Of a stretch of 52,149 nucleotides of DNA, positions 40,975 through 49,501 are shown piece after piece. The position numbers and the translations under genes were made by a program. The DNA comes from a virus. Every line of letters starts with the position of its first letter. Position 1 is the stretch's first letter. The notes under the pieces were generated by a model. It was not told the origin of the DNA, ran no database searches, and was given only the letters and a program-made list of their open reading frames with translations. The stretch spans positions 1 to 52,149 of IMG/VR virus record IMGVR_UViG_3300013101_000013. One strand, given 5' to 3'.

Positions 40975-41216
40975 GGGACGTCTGTCTGTGTCCCGATCGG
41001 GAGAAGGACGGGATCAGGCAACACGTTCAGGATCCCTTCTGTACGTTTATCCATGCACCAGTCCAGACAGTCCTGGTGACCCCAGAAGAGCTTAGCGTCC
41101 GAGACATCAGCAGTGAGCCCTCCATGTCGACTGGCGTAGCGCCAGTGGCCCAGCATGAGAGGTCGAGCGACCCAGAACTCCGTAAGAGACCCAGCGGTGT
41201 AGATGACGGGCTTCAC
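40965..41216 (-). CDS. Tiny-gene operon member I
   Basis: An 83-residue protein starting MKPVIYTAGS, the shared N-terminal pattern of this operon. It also carries KLFWGHQDCLDWCMD, the F-x5-C-x2-W motif seen in members E and J. It overlaps the preceding gene by 4 nt. The function is unknown; the family resemblance suggests one fold reused for different targets. Confidence 0.6.
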   Translation of the reverse strand: MKPVIYTAGSLTEFWVARPLMLGHWRYASRHGGLTADVSDAKLFWGHQDCLDWCMDKRTEGILNVLPDPVLLPIGTQTDVPWM

Positions 41217-41506
41217 GGGGTCCTCTGGTCGACGGACATCGTGCAGTGGACAGAGGTACTGACATCTAGCCAGATGTCATCCAGGTTCACAGAACCGGTC
41301 CACCTCACGATCGGGTACTTACGAAGGTTCACACAGGTCCAACGACTACTGGCCGCAGACACGTAGTGCTTGAAGACCATGGGCCTGTCGTCAACCTGGA
41401 CGTACTCCTGGATACGTCTCTTACTACCGATGCCGTACCAATGAGGCTCCGGAAGCTTGATGGCCCAGTAGTGGACCGGCTTAGCAACGTAGGTAGTCGG
41501 AGTCAC
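41213..41506 (-). CDS. Tiny-gene operon member H
   Basis: A 97-residue protein. The GTG at 41506 overlaps the preceding stop as GTGA and gives an N-terminus MTPTTYVAKPVHYW that matches its neighbours; a longer frame upstream is not supported. Later segments (RRIQEYVQVDDRPMVFKHY, TSVHCTMSVDQ) are not recognised. Confidence 0.6.
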   Translation of the reverse strand: MTPTTYVAKPVHYWAIKLPEPHWYGIGSKRRIQEYVQVDDRPMVFKHYVSAASSRWTCVNLRKYPIVRWTGSVNLDDIWLDVSTSVHCTMSVDQRTP

Positions 41507-42057
41507 AGAAACTTCTTCTGGGGATAAGCGTACTGAGTGGTACCGCCCCATATGACGTTATTCTTGATGAGAGCGGGAGGGAGCTCCTCCTGTCCGTTGT
41601 GGCCACCCATGGTGTACAGAGGCGCCATACGACGCGTCGGATAGACGCCTACGTTGATTAGGGTGCATCCCTCGAGTGTTGCGCCCTCCGGAACGATGAT
41701 CGTCGCAGGGGTGCTCTTAGAGGCGTCGTAGAGCTTCCTCAGGACGAAGGAGTAGAGCACATGGTGCGCATGCTCAAGCATGGACCCGAACTCCTTCTTC
41801 GACAGCTTAGGGCCCCACTTCACGGCGATACCACTCATGGTGGTCCCGACCTTGTGAATAGTCCTCGGAGTTTCCGGGTAAGCACCCAACTCAACGATCC
41901 GACCATTCCAGTTGGTCGTAAGCCGATAGCCGATCTCCTTGAACTCTTCTTCATGAGGGGCGCTCATGAGTGTGGTGGGCTGCTTGCTGTTCGGCTTGAA
42001 GGCCGACAGCAAAGGCAGACCTAGGAGAGCACTGAGGATCTTACGGCGTGTGATCAT
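41503..42057 (-). CDS. Tiny-gene operon member G, Tat-like signal protein
   Basis: A 184-residue protein and the one operon member without the shared start. Its N-terminus, MITRRKILSALLGLPLLSAF, has twin arginines followed by a hydrophobic stretch, as in Tat signal peptides. The mature part is mixed alpha/beta (TIHKVGTTMSGIAVKWGPKL, HVLYSFVLRKLYDASK, TIIVPEGATLEGCTLINVGV). Possible export through the twin-arginine route in the host is an inference; the function is unknown. Confidence 0.6.
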   Translation of the reverse strand: MITRRKILSALLGLPLLSAFKPNSKQPTTLMSAPHEEEFKEIGYRLTTNWNGRIVELGAYPETPRTIHKVGTTMSGIAVKWGPKLSKKEFGSMLEHAHHVLYSFVLRKLYDASKSTPATIIVPEGATLEGCTLINVGVYPTRRMAPLYTMGGHNGQEELPPALIKNNVIWGGTTQYAYPQKKFL

Positions 42058-42260
42058 TCCTTCATTCCCTTCAGGATCATCGCGTCCATCTTCTTCATCA
42101 TAGTCTTAGCCATGGACTTCATGACGGTCTCCTCGTGATATCGATCGAAGCTGTACTTGTTGAACAGGGGCTTAGCCGCGGCCATCCTGATGCGCCGGAG
42201 TTCGACCTCGGTCAGACCTATGAACCGAGTCGGCTTAATGCAGTAGATGTCGGGAGTCAT
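42054..42260 (-). CDS. Tiny-gene operon member F
   Basis: A 68-residue basic protein starting MTPDIYCIKPTRF, the shared pattern. The C-terminus is a Met/Lys-rich helix (KSMAKTMMKKMDAMILKG). It overlaps both neighbours by 4 nt. The function is unknown. Confidence 0.6.
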   Translation of the reverse strand: MTPDIYCIKPTRFIGLTEVELRRIRMAAAKPLFNKYSFDRYHEETVMKSMAKTMMKKMDAMILKGMKE

Positions 42261-42559
42261 GAGGGCTCCGGAAGACCCAGGCCAGGGACTGTCTGCTGCA
42301 TACCGTAGCGGGGCTTGTGAGGCTTCCTTCTCTTGGAGAGGATCAACCGCGGCTCCCAGGTGTCGTTAACAGGCGTCCTAAGAAGCTGGTCATTTTCCCA
42401 GATCCAATCTTCGCATGCTGCCTTGGTCTTGAACTGATGAGCACGACTGTGGTCGGTCGTAAGAACAACACCCGTGTCCTCCTGGCCGGCGAAGCCGCCC
42501 CTGAAGGCCTTGTGCTCGGCGACCCAGATGGGATAGGTGATGTAGGTAGTGCTGCTCAT
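42257..42559 (-). CDS. Tiny-gene operon member E
   Basis: A 100-residue protein starting MSSTTYITYPIWV, a variant of the shared pattern. It has HQFKTKAACEDWIWEN, the F-x5-C-x2-W motif also seen in members I and J, and a basic C-terminal tail. The function is unknown. Confidence 0.6.
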   Translation of the reverse strand: MSSTTYITYPIWVAEHKAFRGGFAGQEDTGVVLTTDHSRAHQFKTKAACEDWIWENDQLLRTPVNDTWEPRLILSKRRKPHKPRYGMQQTVPGLGLPEPS

Positions 42560-42723
42560 GCGTACTTCCTGTTCCGGAAGGGTTCTCTCTTGAGCACTTC
42601 CTTGATGACCTTGTTGAGGTTATCGATCTTCAAGTCTCTCTCCATGATGATGTCGAACGCGATGTCGAAGACTCCTTTGGGAGTCCTCGAGGTTGCGTAG
42701 ATGCAGTACTTGATGGGCGTCAT
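42556..42723 (-). CDS. Tiny-gene operon member D
   Basis: A 55-residue protein, ATG at 42723 overlapping the preceding stop as TGATG, stop overlapping the next start as ATGA. It begins MTPIKYCIYATSR, then a helix VFDIAFDIIMERDLKIDN and a basic end. The overlaps and the shared N-terminus support it as a real gene despite its size. Confidence 0.6.
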   Translation of the reverse strand: MTPIKYCIYATSRTPKGVFDIAFDIIMERDLKIDNLNKVIKEVLKREPFRNRKYA

Positions 42724-42869
42724 CAGTCGATGTCGCTGTAGGAGTTCACTTCCCAGGTGGCTTCCCAGTCGGAGTAGGTAGAGAACGACTGGATAGTGTC
42801 TTCGAAGTCGGAGGGGTCAACCCAGACGTAGTCGACAGCGGGCTTGATGATGTACTTAGTCGGCTTCAT
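42723..42869 (-). CDS. Tiny-gene operon member C
   Basis: A 48-residue acidic protein with ATG at 42869. It starts MKPTKYIIKPAVDYVW, the clearest form of the shared pattern, and ends with Trp/Ser/Asp-rich residues. It overlaps the preceding gene by 14 nt. The function is unknown. Confidence 0.6.
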   Translation of the reverse strand: MKPTKYIIKPAVDYVWVDPSDFEDTIQSFSTYSDWEATWEVNSYSDID

Positions 42870-43017
42870 AGTTAACGCTCTCCCAGTAGCGCTCGGCCAT
42901 CCGTTCGTCTTCCTCATAGAGTAGCGCGTCACGACGTGCGACCTCCGTGAAGAAGTCGAGCATGCTGATCGTCTTGTAGTGGTCAGGTTCGATGATGTAG
43001 TGCACGGGCTCTCTCAT
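42856..43017 (-). CDS. Tiny-gene operon member B
   Basis: A 53-residue protein with ATG at 43017 overlapping the preceding stop as ATGA. It begins MREPVHYIIEPDHY, then an acidic helix (SMLDFFTEVARRDALLYEED). The shared start and overlaps support it. The function is unknown. Confidence 0.6.
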   Translation of the reverse strand: MREPVHYIIEPDHYKTISMLDFFTEVARRDALLYEEDERMAERYWESVNYEAD

Positions 43018-43768: not shown

Positions 43769-44092
43769 ATGTTCGATCTCATCATCCGTCTGTTCTCTTA
43801 CTTCATGCGTGTGGATGCTGTGCATGGTGCGTCCATTGCTCGTACATGGAAGTGCCCTGTGCTGTTGGCCCTGGACAGTGAGGGTACTGCTCTGTATCAG
43901 GAGCTTGATGCCATGACATGGTGTGAGGGTAGGACTGCCAAGCGTAGCTGGATGTGCACCGTGCTGTACTACCGGCTAGAGCTACGTAGGGACATGGTGC
44001 ATGAGCACATGTTCGGTGACAGGCCTGCTCAGAACGAGCGTAACGCTGCTTACTATGCCATGTACTTCGGTGCTGAGGTGATAGGCGAGTAG
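43769..44092 (+). CDS. Hypothetical protein
   Basis: A 107-residue protein with ATG at 43769 and AAAGGAGAAG before it. It starts with a hydrophobic helix (FDLIIRLFSYFMRVDAVHG), then CPVLLALDSEGTALYQELD and an Arg-rich middle, and ends with AAYYAMYFGAEVIGE. No family is recognised. It is the first gene after the structured RNA region. Confidence 0.6.
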   Translation: MFDLIIRLFSYFMRVDAVHGASIARTWKCPVLLALDSEGTALYQELDAMTWCEGRTAKRSWMCTVLYYRLELRRDMVHEHMFGDRPAQNERNAAYYAMYFGAEVIGE

Positions 44093-44162: not shown

Positions 44163-44300
44163 ATGTACACCAAGGTCACTACCCCCAGGCCCAAGGCTCC
44201 TATGCCTAAGGCCCCCATCACTACCCCCATTGGGTACGTGGTGAAGAAGCGCACCCCTAGGCCCATGCCCCTGCATAGGCTCATGGAGAGGTGGGCTTAG
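44163..44300 (+). CDS. Small Pro/Lys-rich protein
   Basis: A 45-residue basic, proline-rich protein with AAGGAAGGAG upstream of ATG 44163. Its sequence alternates KAP and TP units (RPKAPMPKAPITTP), followed by GYVVKKRTPRPMPLH. Its stop codon lies inside the 5' strand of stem II of the hammerhead ribozyme, so translation and ribozyme folding may interfere with each other. Confidence 0.5.
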   Translation: MYTKVTTPRPKAPMPKAPITTPIGYVVKKRTPRPMPLHRLMERWA

Positions 44301-44377
44301 CTACATCGAAACCCTGCCCTTAGGAGGCGGGGTCTACGTGCATTGGTAGCACGTACTGATGAGTCACCAGTAGCTGA
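44297..44377 (+). ncRNA. Type II hammerhead self-cleaving ribozyme
   Basis: All invariant core bases are present and correctly spaced. C 44307 and GAAA (44308-44311) lead into stem III (ACCCTGCC 44311-44318 with GGCGGGGT 44326-44333, one G-U pair). Then comes the cleavage base C 44334 (GUC), stem I (TACGTGC 44335-44341 with GCACGTA 44349-44355), the core CTGATGA (44356-44362) and G 44363. Stem II closes to the flanks through 44307/44363, an internal loop and TTAGCTAC (44297-44304) with GTAGCTGA (44370-44377). Loop I TGGT (44344-44347) can pair with internal-loop ACCA (44366-44369), a typical tertiary contact. Predicted cleavage is between 44334 and 44335, between two small genes. Confidence 0.85.
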
Positions 44378-44394
44378 CTACTAAGGAGGCCGTA

Positions 44395-44718
44395 ATGGCC
44401 ATACTCGCTGTCCTCATGTCCGTGGTCCTGTACCCGATCTGGGTGCGGAACGCTTTGTCCTCCAGGCTGTACCTGCGCCGACCGACGCTGTGCAGGTGGG
44501 TGGATAGCACCATTGGGGTGCTCTCCATCGCTCTCTACCTGTGGGTCAACCCCCTGCCCTTCTTGTTGGCCTTGCTCACCGTCCCCCACTACGTGGTGGC
44601 CGTGTGCTTGCTCTGCAAGATGCTCTTCGGAGTGACCTACCAGCGCTTCTATTGGGAGTGCGCCCTAACCACCATGTTCATGTCGAGCGTGGTCTTCATC
44701 ATCGTCCTCGTTTACTAG
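44395..44718 (+). CDS. Small multi-span membrane protein
   Basis: A 107-residue membrane protein with AAGGAGG before ATG 44395. Three or four hydrophobic segments are visible: AILAVLMSVVLYPIWV, STIGVLSIALYLWV, LPFLLALLTVPHYVVAVCLL and TTMFMSSVVFIIVLVY. After ribozyme cleavage its mRNA would begin at 44335 with a 5'-hydroxyl and a terminal hairpin. A holin-like or exclusion function is possible; no family is recognised. Confidence 0.65.
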   Translation: MAILAVLMSVVLYPIWVRNALSSRLYLRRPTLCRWVDSTIGVLSIALYLWVNPLPFLLALLTVPHYVVAVCLLCKMLFGVTYQRFYWECALTTMFMSSVVFIIVLVY

Positions 44719-44729
44719 AAAGGAACGTC

Positions 44730-44855
44730 GTGGACAACCCCAACATCGTCAGTGAGCAGGAGCTCGAGACCGAGGTCACCAAGGCCGGTGATCTGTTCGA
44801 ACAGTGGGCCAACGACAACGCTGTCACGCCCATCAGCCACAAGAACGAGGACTAG
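44730..44855 (+). CDS. Small acidic protein
   Basis: A 41-residue acidic protein with AAAGGAAC before GTG 44730, 11 nt after the membrane protein stop. It has VSEQELETEVTKAGDLFEQW. It may be a small partner or antagonist of a neighbouring product. No family is recognised. Confidence 0.5.
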   Translation: MDNPNIVSEQELETEVTKAGDLFEQWANDNAVTPISHKNED

Positions 44856-44877: not shown

Positions 44878-45381
44878 ATGATCAATGCAATCTTCTCGAT
44901 GCTGATCAACAGCATCACCATCTACGTGTACCCCATGGCGCGTTGCTCCATGCGGTCCACCCTCCACAAGAAGCAGGGCAAGCCGTCCACCTTCTATGTG
45001 GAGCCCGTCAACCCGGCCGTCAGGGACTGGATGTTGCTCAACGCCCCCATGGAGGGCACGTCTATCGTCATCCCCATCAAGATGGAAGAGAGCGGCAAAC
45101 CCCTCTATGAGCTCAAGGGCTACAACGCCATCATCTTCAAGGCCAATGGTGAGTGGGGATTTGACCCTGATACGAACAAGGCCTGGATGGAGGACCTGGT
45201 GCAGCGTGTGACCAGCAAGGAAGACAGGCAGGTCCTCACTCCCCAGATCGTCTTGGATGAGCTCATCAAGCACGTCAACAAGTACTCCGAGGACAAGAAG
45301 GAGTTGCTCAGCGTGCACCACGTGGTGGAGAAGACCAAGAAGGAGCAGTCCACCGAGAAGCAGGGTGAGTTCGACATCTAG
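44878..45381 (+). CDS. Hypothetical protein
   Basis: A 167-residue protein with AGGAG 8 nt before ATG 44878. The N-terminus is hydrophobic (INAIFSMLINSITIYVYPM); an internal ATG at 44935 would remove it. It continues with FYVEPVNPAVRDWMLLNAP, SIVIPIKMEESGKPLYELKG and a charged helical C-terminus. No family is recognised. It is the last gene before a strong terminator. Confidence 0.6.
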   Translation: MINAIFSMLINSITIYVYPMARCSMRSTLHKKQGKPSTFYVEPVNPAVRDWMLLNAPMEGTSIVIPIKMEESGKPLYELKGYNAIIFKANGEWGFDPDTNKAWMEDLVQRVTSKEDRQVLTPQIVLDELIKHVNKYSEDKKELLSVHHVVEKTKKEQSTEKQGEFDI

Positions 45382-45404: not shown

Positions 45405-45441
45405 GGGAGGTGTGCCAACAGGAGGCACATCTCCCTTTTTT
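45405..45441 (+). terminator. Strong intrinsic terminator
   Basis: A 12-bp stem with one G-U pair (GGGAGGTGTGCC 45405-45416 with GGCACATCTCCC 45424-45435) closes a 7-nt loop and is followed by six Ts (45436-45441). It ends the small-gene transcript that begins near 43769 and separates it from the zinc-ribbon/PcfJ operon. Confidence 0.95.
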
Positions 45442-45470: not shown

Positions 45471-47705
45471 ATGAGTGTGTTCAAGCACACTGAAGTTGAG
45501 GGCGAGACCCTCGCAACAGAAGAGGTGCTCTCGAGAGATGCACTCGATAACCTCTTCGACCACGACCCCGAGAAGCGGGTCATGGGCAAGATGCAGGTCA
45601 GGACCACTGGCACCATCGACGGTGCGAAGTGGAGTCTGTCCCGTGCCTTGAGTGATGCCATGGATAGTGGGCTCTGGAGGTTCGTAGAGAACCAGGGGTC
45701 ACCTACTCTCGGCAAGCTCGAGAAGTACATGGATAGGCGTGAGCTGGCCTTCCGTGAGGTGAAGCCCGTGGTGATGTACTGCCACGAGATCACCGAGGCT
45801 GCTGTACGTAACGTGCGGCGCAAGTTCAACGGTGTCATCCATCAGGGATGCAGCCTACTCCTGGACCTGGAGTGGATTGATCAGAACGACCCCGGTCAGG
45901 GCGCCATGGTCACCCACAATGGGCTCCGTCTGTTCTCGGTCCGTGTTCCCTTCAGGTTGGAGGGCAACAAGGTCAAGAGCAAGGAGGGCTGGACCTTCTG
46001 GCTGGCACACCCCTACACCCACAGTGGTGTCGAGACGGTGGAGTTCCACGATGTCATCATCGAGATCCCCGAGACCAAGCGAAAGCTGCGGCTGATTGGA
46101 CTCCCGGCCGAGATTGACAACCTCTTCTCTAAGAAGCGTGGGCTCACCCTGATCACACAGGTGCGGGTGCTGAGGGACAACGAGTGGAAGTGGATACCCC
46201 ACAGGCTCCTCAAGGACAACGACATCACCTACCGTCCGACGCCTGAGGGCCCGAGGTTGGTGAAGCGTGTCTCCCGGTTCATCAAGATGGCCATGCCCCT
46301 GCCCAGCCTGATCAGTGATGGTCACCTCAGGTGGGTAGCCAAGGCTCAGGAGCTACTGAAGGAGCTGGCTGGTGGTCTCAAGGAGATCGAGCACTGTGAG
46401 GGTATCAAGACGGAAGTCCTGGTCCCTGGCTCTTACAGGGTGCCTGAGGAGGTCCTGAGCACAGGTGCGGTGGAGCGCATCAGTGACAGTGGCATCGATG
46501 TCCATGAACAGGCTCACTACAAGCTCAACGAGTGGTTCCCGTGTGGGACTGGCTGGACGAGCAGACTGGACCCGTTCCCGGAGTTCCATGGTCATGGTCC
46601 CTACAACACCAGGCCGTCCACAGGTGAGTGGGTCTATAAGCGGTACTCCAACGCGGATGGACACACCAGGCAGGACTTCTACCCCCGTGATGGTGAGGAG
46701 GTCTACAAGCAGCGTGACGAGTGGGACAGGTCATCCGAGATCTGCATCCAGGACATTGTCGTCGGTGACGACATGATGGATGAGAACCCCATCGACATCG
46801 CTACGATCGCGTTCAGCATGCCTGGTACGTGCCAGGGTTGCGGGATGTTCTTCGATCACGGTCTCGAGAGGAAATGCCCCCGATGTGGTCACCACGCGGG
46901 ACACGGCATCCTCTGGACTACTCAGGAGGGTGTGAAGCGCCCCATCAAGTGGTTCAACCTGCGTGCTAACCCCTCGGTGAAGCATGGTGATCAGTGGTTG
47001 GGTGGTACCAGCCTCAGCGAGTTCATGTCCATGACCAGGAGACTGATCCGGGACAAGGACTGCCTGATCAACGTGGTCACACCGTGGATCCTGCGTAGGG
47101 ACCTGGACGAGTGGAGTACCTGGGTCGAGGAGCACGGGGATGACAAGAACTACCCCGGTGCCATGCTCAAGCAGCGGAGGCTGAAGTCGTTCGAGGGTGA
47201 GACCAGCATCAAGAGGATGCACTACGCTCGGATGTACAGCGATCCGTATCGGTTCCGTCGGATGATGTACAGCACCCCTGATGGTGTGAACGTACGTGGT
47301 TCACCCAACAGGATCTTCTGTGTCCGTGGTGAGCTCAAGAATGGGCTCGTCAACAAGTACGCCCTGCGTCCGGACAGGAAGGGTATGGAGTCCATCATCG
47401 GCAAGGCGTTCTTCTTCCTGGATGAGGAGAAGGCAGACGAGATGGGTATGAAGTACCTGCAGCTGCCCAGCAAGGTCATGGTCGTCACCTTCATGAATGA
47501 TGAGGTGAGGGATCAGAAGCTGTTGCCGGCCATCCATATCGGGGACAACGCCCATGGCTCTGCCAAGGGTGAGTCCAGCGGCATCGTGACCACTCACAAG
47601 GTGGGCGTGAACAAGCCCTTCGACTACAGCAAGGTCAAGAGGCTGAAGCCCATGGACTACAGCGAGAACCTCGGTGCTGATTACATGAAAGGAGGTGTGC
47701 GATGA
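45471..47705 (+). CDS. Large zinc-ribbon protein upstream of PcfJ-like gene
   Basis: A 744-residue protein not recognised as a known family. A zinc ribbon with Cys 454, 457, 469 and 472 (CQGCG, KCPRCGHH) lies just after the middle. The N-terminal half is mixed, with TDA/His-rich segments (VVMYCHEITEAAVRNVRRKF, SLLLDLEWIDQNDPGQGAMV) and beta strands (FRLEGNKVKSKEGWTFWLAH). The C-terminal part is basic (MHYARMYSDPYRFRRMMYS) and ends FDYSKVKRLKPMDYSENLG. Its stop overlaps the PcfJ-like start as ATGA, so the two proteins are probably made in fixed ratio and may form one system. Replication, processing and defence-related roles are all possible. Confidence 0.65.
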   Translation: MSVFKHTEVEGETLATEEVLSRDALDNLFDHDPEKRVMGKMQVRTTGTIDGAKWSLSRALSDAMDSGLWRFVENQGSPTLGKLEKYMDRRELAFREVKPVVMYCHEITEAAVRNVRRKFNGVIHQGCSLLLDLEWIDQNDPGQGAMVTHNGLRLFSVRVPFRLEGNKVKSKEGWTFWLAHPYTHSGVETVEFHDVIIEIPETKRKLRLIGLPAEIDNLFSKKRGLTLITQVRVLRDNEWKWIPHRLLKDNDITYRPTPEGPRLVKRVSRFIKMAMPLPSLISDGHLRWVAKAQELLKELAGGLKEIEHCEGIKTEVLVPGSYRVPEEVLSTGAVERISDSGIDVHEQAHYKLNEWFPCGTGWTSRLDPFPEFHGHGPYNTRPSTGEWVYKRYSNADGHTRQDFYPRDGEEVYKQRDEWDRSSEICIQDIVVGDDMMDENPIDIATIAFSMPGTCQGCGMFFDHGLERKCPRCGHHAGHGILWTTQEGVKRPIKWFNLRANPSVKHGDQWLGGTSLSEFMSMTRRLIRDKDCLINVVTPWILRRDLDEWSTWVEEHGDDKNYPGAMLKQRRLKSFEGETSIKRMHYARMYSDPYRFRRMMYSTPDGVNVRGSPNRIFCVRGELKNGLVNKYALRPDRKGMESIIGKAFFFLDEEKADEMGMKYLQLPSKVMVVTFMNDEVRDQKLLPAIHIGDNAHGSAKGESSGIVTTHKVGVNKPFDYSKVKRLKPMDYSENLGADYMKGGVR

Positions 47706-49501
47706 GGTCTATCCACAAGAACTCGTTGGTTGGGCGTGTCCTCAAGCAGGCACGTCTGGATTACTCCAGTCTGGAGGAGTACTTGAACAGTGACGCTGTT
47801 CTCAACGCGATCGACAGCTACAAGGACCTGATGTGGGTGTGGATCAAGGAGAACATGCCGGTCCGGAAGTACACCACGTGCTGGGAGGAGACACCGGGGA
47901 AGATCAGCTGGGTCAACGGCACCATCAGGATGGACATCATCCGTGGACAGGACGGAGCCATCGACCGAGCCTTCAAGCGGTTGGCTGGGAAGGGTCGAGG
48001 AGGAGGCGTCCGGCTGAACCTGCTACCCAGCAAGGGGATCAAAGTCCGTGACGACTTCATCATGGAAGAGATGTACGCGGCCATGAAGGAGAAGCACGCG
48101 TTCGTACTACCCCGTGTGTCCAGAGGAGTAGTCGAGAAGCACATGGCAGAGCAGACCGACAAGTTCAAGAAGAGAGGTATCGAACTTCATGTCTGGGACG
48201 TAGAGATGAGGGCGAAAGACTTCAGGCGAAGCACCATCACGATCCAGAAGGACCTTCAACGGGCCATCTTCCGTGAGACATCTCTTAAGTGGTTCATGTG
48301 CACGCCTCACACGCTCTCCAAGAGGGTATGGAACCACTTCCTGTTCCAGGTCCTGGACAAGGATGCACTGGCCATCGCTACGAGCTGCAACACAACGAAC
48401 GTCACGATCGACCACTACAACACGGTAGTACGTAGCCTGGAGTCGGCCAAGGAGGCCCATGCGCTCAACCCCTCGGTCACTGCGCTCTGGATGAACATCA
48501 TGGGTTCTAACTACCCGTGCAAAGGCGCTATTCACCAGGCGCTCAAGATCCACATGAAGAGGAACGGCCTAACCAACCGTGGATGGAAGTACCTGCTCAA
48601 GCTGTCGGTGCTGACGGTCACGCACATGGTGAACACCATCAAAGCCAACGTACATGTGGACCTGGACATGCTGAGGCCTCAAGAGGGTCGCAGGATGCCC
48701 AACCAGCTCTACGTTGAGCTGCACGAGGTTATCGCGAGAACCCTGAACAACCTGGCCATGACCGATGTCAGCCCCAGGTACACCGTGATGCGTTGGCTCA
48801 GTCGTGAACTCATAGACATCTCCATGTGGGCCGTGCAAGAGGACATGATTAGCTCCAAGGTAAGCATCCTGCGTGCCTGCTTCAAGGCCACTAAGTACGA
48901 GGCCATCAGCAACAAGAGGTGGAACAAGCTGAACAACGAAGCCCTCCAGAACCAGACTCAGCTTCCTCCTCCCCGGTGGAGTGGGCGTCTGCATGTCGTA
49001 TGGGACTGGATGCACCAGCTCAATGTCCCTCTGGCTCGTAACCAGAGGAACATGGACTTCATTGGCATGGAGAGGCTGGCTGCAGCATGGCATCAGGAGC
49101 TGAGGAACAACCAGATAGGTGGCCACGACATCTTCGGATACAGCTCGCTACGTGAGCCCAAGGAATGGGAGAGTGCCATCGAGAGCTACGAGTACGAAGA
49201 GCTGGTGGCCCTACCTATCAACTCCACAGTGGAGCTGATGGAAGAGGGCAAGGCCATGCACCACTGTGTTGCCGGCTATGACAGCTACTGCGTAAATGGC
49301 ACCACGAGGATCTTCAGCATCCAGGACAAAGAGGGCAAGCGCATCTCTACCCTGGAGCTGAGGTATGACGCACAGAGCAACAGGTGGAACACAGGTCAGA
49401 ACTACGGACCCTGCAACCACCAGGTAGAGCACAGGATCACAGGCTTCGGTACGAAGGTCGCAGCGAAGTACACGGAAGAGTTCAGAAAGGACGAAGAGTG
49501 A
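47702..49501 (+). CDS. PcfJ-like protein
   Basis: A 599-residue basic protein. The C-terminal 95 residues carry the PcfJ-like pattern: STVELMEEGKAMHHCVAGYD (helix plus H-H-C-V-x-x-Y), then YCVNGTTRIFSI, STLELRYD and WNTGQNYGPCNHQV. The rest is helical with many Lys, Met and Asn residues, including LRPQEGRRMPNQLYVELHEV. PcfJ-like proteins are known from conjugative plasmids and mobile elements and are seen in some phages; their biochemical role is not established. Coupling by ATGA to the 744-residue gene, and by TGATG to the following tiny gene, suggests a four-gene unit. Confidence 0.7.
   Translation: MRSIHKNSLVGRVLKQARLDYSSLEEYLNSDAVLNAIDSYKDLMWVWIKENMPVRKYTTCWEETPGKISWVNGTIRMDIIRGQDGAIDRAFKRLAGKGRGGGVRLNLLPSKGIKVRDDFIMEEMYAAMKEKHAFVLPRVSRGVVEKHMAEQTDKFKKRGIELHVWDVEMRAKDFRRSTITIQKDLQRAIFRETSLKWFMCTPHTLSKRVWNHFLFQVLDKDALAIATSCNTTNVTIDHYNTVVRSLESAKEAHALNPSVTALWMNIMGSNYPCKGAIHQALKIHMKRNGLTNRGWKYLLKLSVLTVTHMVNTIKANVHVDLDMLRPQEGRRMPNQLYVELHEVIARTLNNLAMTDVSPRYTVMRWLSRELIDISMWAVQEDMISSKVSILRACFKATKYEAISNKRWNKLNNEALQNQTQLPPPRWSGRLHVVWDWMHQLNVPLARNQRNMDFIGMERLAAAWHQELRNNQIGGHDIFGYSSLREPKEWESAIESYEYEELVALPINSTVELMEEGKAMHHCVAGYDSYCVNGTTRIFSIQDKEGKRISTLELRYDAQSNRWNTGQNYGPCNHQVEHRITGFGTKVAAKYTEEFRKDEE

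Follow-up and report, generated by a model that had tools for sequence, protein, structure and literature searches.

Does the short interval between two small genes near position 44,335 encode an RNA that cuts itself and so divides an operon transcript, or does it only carry hairpins that resemble such an element? The DNA analysed here, referred to as the window, is a 52,149-nucleotide (52-kb) stretch of a phage whose genes include a tail sheath, a terminase and a sigma-70 factor. The terminase is about 33% identical to the terminases of Moorella phage MTATph1 and Bacillus phage KLEB27-3, and the best terminase identities in IMG/VR reach up to 50%. No DNA relatives of the region were found among named phages. 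The window is a piece of a poorly known myovirus lineage, probably a large one. The five ORFs around the element all lie on the + strand and are likely one operon with a transcript of about 43.7-45.44 kb, which is presumed since a promoter was not identified. The genes and signals of this neighborhood are the following.

43769..44092, + strand: small ORF, 107 aa from its ATG, which opens the presumed operon; no family found
44163..44300, + strand: small basic ORF, 45 aa, immediately 5' of the ribozyme, with its TAG stop at 44298-44300
44383..44389, + strand: ribosome binding site AAGGAGG (from the sequence), serving the 107-aa gene 3' of the ribozyme
44395..44718, + strand: hydrophobic 107-aa gene 3' of the ribozyme, ATG at 44395; no relatives found
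44730..44855, + strand: small ORF with a GTG start, 41 aa, presumed part of the same operon
44878..45381, + strand: ORF, 167 aa, the final gene ahead of the terminator
45405..45441, + strand: strong intrinsic-terminator-like hairpin, 12 pairs followed by T6, which ends the presumed operon

The element is flanked on both sides by same-strand genes with ribosome binding sites, and the terminator lies past the last gene. The hydrophobic product of 44395..44718 is likely a membrane protein. The small genes flanking the ribozyme are ORFans, for which the searched libraries and collections yielded no relatives, and both 107-aa neighbors had zero matches in viral contigs. Elsewhere in the window, a 599-aa protein (47702-49501, + strand) has a C-terminal PcfJ-like domain (PF14284, E 4.9e-12). 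The 744-aa downstream protein that adjoins it on the upstream side had zero matches in viral contigs, named phages or the records of terminase relatives. A series of small ORFs at 41213-43017 on the - strand shares an N-terminal pattern like M-x-P-x-x-Y-x-(I/V/A) and is possibly a paralogous small-protein family.

An initial annotation had proposed a complete type II hammerhead at this place, with the core C-GAAA, GUC and CTGATGA-G, a stem III of 8 bp and a stem I of 7 bp. Every one of these core bases is present in the sequence, and a pair-by-pair script bore out both stem lengths, with one U-G pair in stem III. The parts of the element are as follows.

44304..44372, + strand: type II hammerhead ribozyme, extent taken from the RF02276 match (33.9 bits, E 9e-7)
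44307..44311, + strand: C11.1 (C44307) and the GAAA core strand (44308-44311), from the sequence
44311..44333, + strand: stem III hairpin, 8 pairs, 44311-44318 with 44326-44333 (checked by script; -14.2 kcal/mol)
44332..44334, + strand: GUC cleavage triplet, predicted cut 44334/44335 (sequence and RF02276 alignment position)
44335..44355, + strand: stem I hairpin, 7 Watson-Crick pairs, 44335-44341 with 44349-44355 (checked by script; -9.3 kcal/mol)
44344..44347, + strand: loop I strand of the pseudoknot, TGGT
44356..44363, + strand: CTGATGA core strand (44356-44362) and G10.1 (44363), invariant or nearly so in relatives
44366..44369, + strand: 3' strand of the pseudoknot, ACCA, three bases past G10.1 as in the family
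44297..44377, + strand: outer helix enclosing the ribozyme, 44297-44304 with 44370-44377, 8 pairs including one U-G; marginal significance

The pairs of stem III run A-U, C-G, C-G, C-G, U-G, G-C, C-G and C-G, and loop I spans 44342-44348. Stems I and III are closed by hairpins and stem II is open, the order of a type II hammerhead. Among the marks of membership, the element has the catalytic core, an NUH triplet, at least one C-G pair of stem II next to the core and a pseudoknot joining loop I to the tail. The permuted order, open stem II, catalytic core, GUC site and loop I pseudoknot with a tail 3' of stem II are shared with Hammerhead_II (RF02276) as described by Perreault et al. in 2011 (PMC3088659), as is the intergenic, sense-strand position in phages. 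The differences are in detail. Stem II has one pair where two (G-C/G-C) are usual, C-A-U-C-GAAA stands for the usual A-A-G-C-GAAA, the tail reads G-UC-ACCA instead of G-CA-GCCA, and the window copy has a possible extra outer helix and slightly longer spacers (-10, +32).

The Rfam hammerhead search suggested in the initial annotation gave a full-length match to RF02276 at the score and E-value listed above, the latter calculated over the window; on a 281-base stretch searched against all Rfam families, the E-value was 2e-5. The score of 33.9 bits lies below the gathering threshold of 37 bits, which is a curation cut-off and not a biochemical feature. Rfam run over the entire window with default settings reported nothing because the RF02276 score was 3 bits under this cut-off, which is likewise missed by other copies whose cores and pseudoknots are intact. 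A covariance model (R1) built from 29 diverse phage hammerheads, with the window copy excluded, gave 39.6 bits and an E-value of about 3e-8 at 44306-44370, its sole match in the 52-kb window. The structure behind R1 covaries strongly: in the training set 85% of stem cells were paired, compared with 32-45% for slid structures, and 109 double changes were counted against a shuffle mean of 39.

These scores bear on the possibility of a chance match, that is, an ordinary intercistronic hairpin pair or an attenuator that happens to bear the core letters. A mechanical descriptor found one match in the window, with 7+7 stem pairs when stem III is counted without its A-U pair. In 400 Markov-1 simulations of the window, 25 core matches had stems of at least 3+3 pairs and none had 6+6; the best total was 12 pairs, as compared with 14 in the window. 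The outer helix close to chance level and the finding of no conserved homologous locus speak for coincidence. Against it stand the E-values of two separately built models, the simulations, and the fact that the element has the correct strand, spacing and gene context and the pseudoknot its correct register. We regard a chance origin as highly improbable. Judged by its sequence, the complete type II hammerhead in the window is real.

The claim of an 8-bp closing stem II requires correction. An 8-pair helix does exist and is present in the minimum-energy fold. It is a detached outer helix, however, separated from the core by an internal loop in which the pseudoknot strand lies. Stem II proper consists of the single pair C44307-G44363, a C-G pair that is invariant in the 29 diverse relatives. 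The second position is unpaired, with T44306 facing T44364 (U-U), unlike the G-C/G-C found at stem II in 115 of 137 relatives among the matches listed. Similarly, the stop codon that had been placed in stem II (TAG, 44298-44300) does lie within the 8-pair helix, but that helix is the outer one. Equally long helices arose in controls at a rate of about 4% (6 Watson-Crick pairs, mismatched flanks) or about 8% (8 pairs with G-U, shuffled flank), and no enrichment of an outer helix was seen across 144 phage hammerheads among the matches listed. Being near chance and not enriched in relatives, the helix was rejected as a family trait and can not be counted as evidence, although it may help the ribozyme.

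The proposed tertiary contact between TGGT and ACCA, in contrast, holds in full: it forms four pairs, all Watson-Crick, in the exact register of the family. Among the matches listed, the four tail bases starting three past G10.1 pair with loop I in 114 of 137 distinct phage copies, a count that is partly circular because the search pattern for most copies fixed two C's in the tail. With the letters of the same tail shuffled, a mean of 38 and a maximum of 59 of 137 pair, and other offsets reach at most 47. Copies outside the pattern pair through other letters, such as GTCGCG with GCGA and GTAGTG with GCTA. The window pseudoknot has U-A where most relatives show U-G.

Does the element still cut? 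It may be a decayed or very slow hammerhead, a homologue of the family that cleaves little in the cell and now serves mainly as an intercistronic double hairpin. Several features are in line with such a loss: the non-canonical stem II with its one pair and U-U mismatch, the RF02276 score under the gathering cut-off, a degenerate copy without GAAA in a related phage (L212, described below), and a competing fold in which CAUC (44304-44307) pairs with the core GAUG, adopted in the minimum-energy fold of a longer piece. On the other hand, no catalytic base is lost, the two long stems are whole, all pseudoknot pairs are Watson-Crick, and a phage copy (L126) shares the TC/GT context. In published type II hammerheads the pseudoknot is required for fast cleavage, and a construct with a one-pair stem II and the pseudoknot was fast in vitro (PMC3088659). 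Type II hammerheads of the same design cleave in vitro, and some also upon transcription in E. coli (PMC3088659). We therefore consider decay unlikely, and the sequence argues that the window hammerhead probably cuts its own mRNA.

To place the element in the family, IMG/VR was scanned for the hammerhead core and tail, which yielded at least 120 stretches; all 50 IMG/VR records searched whole held one or two copies each. Two pattern matches (L127 and L128), apparently inside coding sequence and without stems, were attributed to chance, as was the sole match in a cellular genome (L214), whose stems do not form. The placement sample comprised 144 copies (L002-L126) with distinct surroundings, many of them from related phages and hence not independent. 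Among the matches listed, an ORF of at least 40 codons stops within -14 to +1 of GAAA in 123 of the 144 copies, compared with 6.2% of random same-strand points. The commonest stop position in these matches is -5, the usual junction reads TAA, TGA or TAG and then GC-GAAA, and from the core to the following start codon the median distance is about 19 nt. The window spacers, with the stop at -10 and the start at +32, are consistent with this family placement. A literature search of incomplete coverage turned up no published account of where phage hammerheads lie relative to stop codons.

This placement raises the question of whether translation and cleavage are coupled, a refinement that is compatible with cleavage of the operon mRNA. 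A terminating ribosome has a footprint large enough to cover the C-GAAA strand. A ribosome terminating at TAG 44298-44300 would thereby link the processing of the downstream mRNA to translation of the upstream gene, so that cleavage would occur only while the upstream gene is not being finished. The stop codon 10 nt 5' of GAAA in the window, and the stops within -14 to +1 elsewhere, are in keeping with this. Tight gene packing alone, however, would also leave a ribozyme flush with a stop codon, and one ribosome-free moment suffices for cleavage. We offer the coupling as a tentative proposal with the balance against it. A ribosome-binding-site switch upon cleavage, which was also considered, is not supported, since folding gives no clear sign that the site becomes more or less accessible.

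The distribution among relatives of the window phage was uneven. No hammerhead was found in the closest IMG/VR terminase relatives (48-50% identity), including a 47-kb and a 193-kb record, nor in MTATph1 or KLEB27-3, which are relatives by terminase and tail sheath. Covariation is thus seen in the family only, the terminase relatives of the window being without the element. A weak match of 14 bits (G015) looks like chance. Among terminase-related phages, an intact copy occurs only in a distant 244-kb record (L209; IMG/VR 3300025009_000050; terminase 34% identity), beside different genes. Like the window copy it is type II, has the TCGAAA context and carries a UAG stop directly 5' of GAAA; it differs in having GUA rather than GUC, another tail and other neighbor genes, and represents a separate locus. 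A degenerate hammerhead-like element lies at L212:1501-1560 (-) in a 178-kb terminase-related phage (G017; IMG/VR 3300005077_000003), just 5' of a gene start. It retains a stem I with a GTGGT loop, CTGAAGA and a GAGCCA tail, and GCAA replaces GAAA. As terminase relatives mostly lack the hammerhead and the distant copy sits at another locus, the ribozyme is more likely mobile or frequently lost than ancestral at the window locus.

Clustered hammerheads are known from phages or prophages of Agrobacterium, Azorhizobium and Clostridium scindens, where they lie between small co-directional genes, as in the window, and processing of polycistronic RNA was proposed (PMC3088659). The window, in contrast, holds a single copy on a 52-kb fragment of an unrelated, uncharacterized myovirus-like lineage. 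Clusters of 3-5 type II copies between small genes were also seen in L246 (IMG/VR 3300019458_000494), L090 and L100; L018 and L246 have a TTC/GAA-type stem II, and tails vary across the small clusters. The largest assembly observed is in the 57-kb record IMG/VR 3300017605_000570 (L245; G027:C1:9932-17520 (-)), with 24 type II hammerheads on one strand within 7.6 kb. All 24 score over the RF02276 gathering threshold, and in an alignment that was fitted to the model every modelled stem cell of the 24 copies is paired and 98 double changes are counted. In nearly every interval a small gene stops only a few bases from the ribozyme that follows it, with the ribozymes starting at the stop codons, and the whole has the look of an operon cut up into mRNAs of one gene each. 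Apart from single ribozyme-sized matches, the array had no counterpart among named phages. These matches lie at unannotated places in Streptomyces phages Marav and Salutena and Rhodobacter phage RcWaterboi (H43-H46), and look like unannotated hammerheads.

Then, what would the ribozyme do for the window phage? After transcription, the RNA would fold into stems I and III, loop I would form its pseudoknot with the tail, and by the chemistry of the family a cut would fall between C44334 and U44335. The operon transcript would be divided into an upstream mRNA of two genes and a downstream mRNA of three. Because the type II architecture closes stems I and III as hairpins, both product ends would lie in hairpins. 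The stem III hairpin, carrying a 2',3'-cyclic phosphate, would close the upstream mRNA at its 3' end, and the stem I hairpin, carrying a 5'-OH, would open the downstream mRNA; these end groups again follow from family chemistry. The new 5' end would be 60 nt ahead of the start codon (44335 to the ATG at 44395), the distance given in the initial annotation. Hairpins at the new ends would be expected to slow degradation from there, so that each half of the operon could have a lifetime of its own. We are confident in a genuine, pseudoknot-stabilized type II hammerhead between presumably co-transcribed small phage genes that would split the operon mRNA, likely with separate lifetimes or protected ends for the two products. 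That the element could separate two mRNAs, as suggested earlier, is the interpretation that best suits the locus, in keeping with the family model, the register of the pseudoknot and the stereotyped gene context.

A 2011 study (PMC3088659) had already described type II hammerheads with this pseudoknot, placed them in phage operons and put forward the idea that they process mRNA. The kind is already known from hundreds of phages, and the window copy is ordinary by itself. It is a divergent addition to the known type II phage hammerheads, from a phage lineage without a named close relative. The window offers a simple five-gene operon for testing the role of phage hammerheads, a question that dates from 2011. 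More speculatively, and with low expectation on our part, phage type II hammerheads including this one might be a gene-separation device set flush with the stop codon, its cut timed by the terminating ribosome and its mRNA ends capped by hairpins, with the dicing of an operon by 24 ribozymes as the extreme. The stop-codon-flush placement makes both translation coupling and mRNA dicing testable, and the 24-ribozyme array would be the best case.
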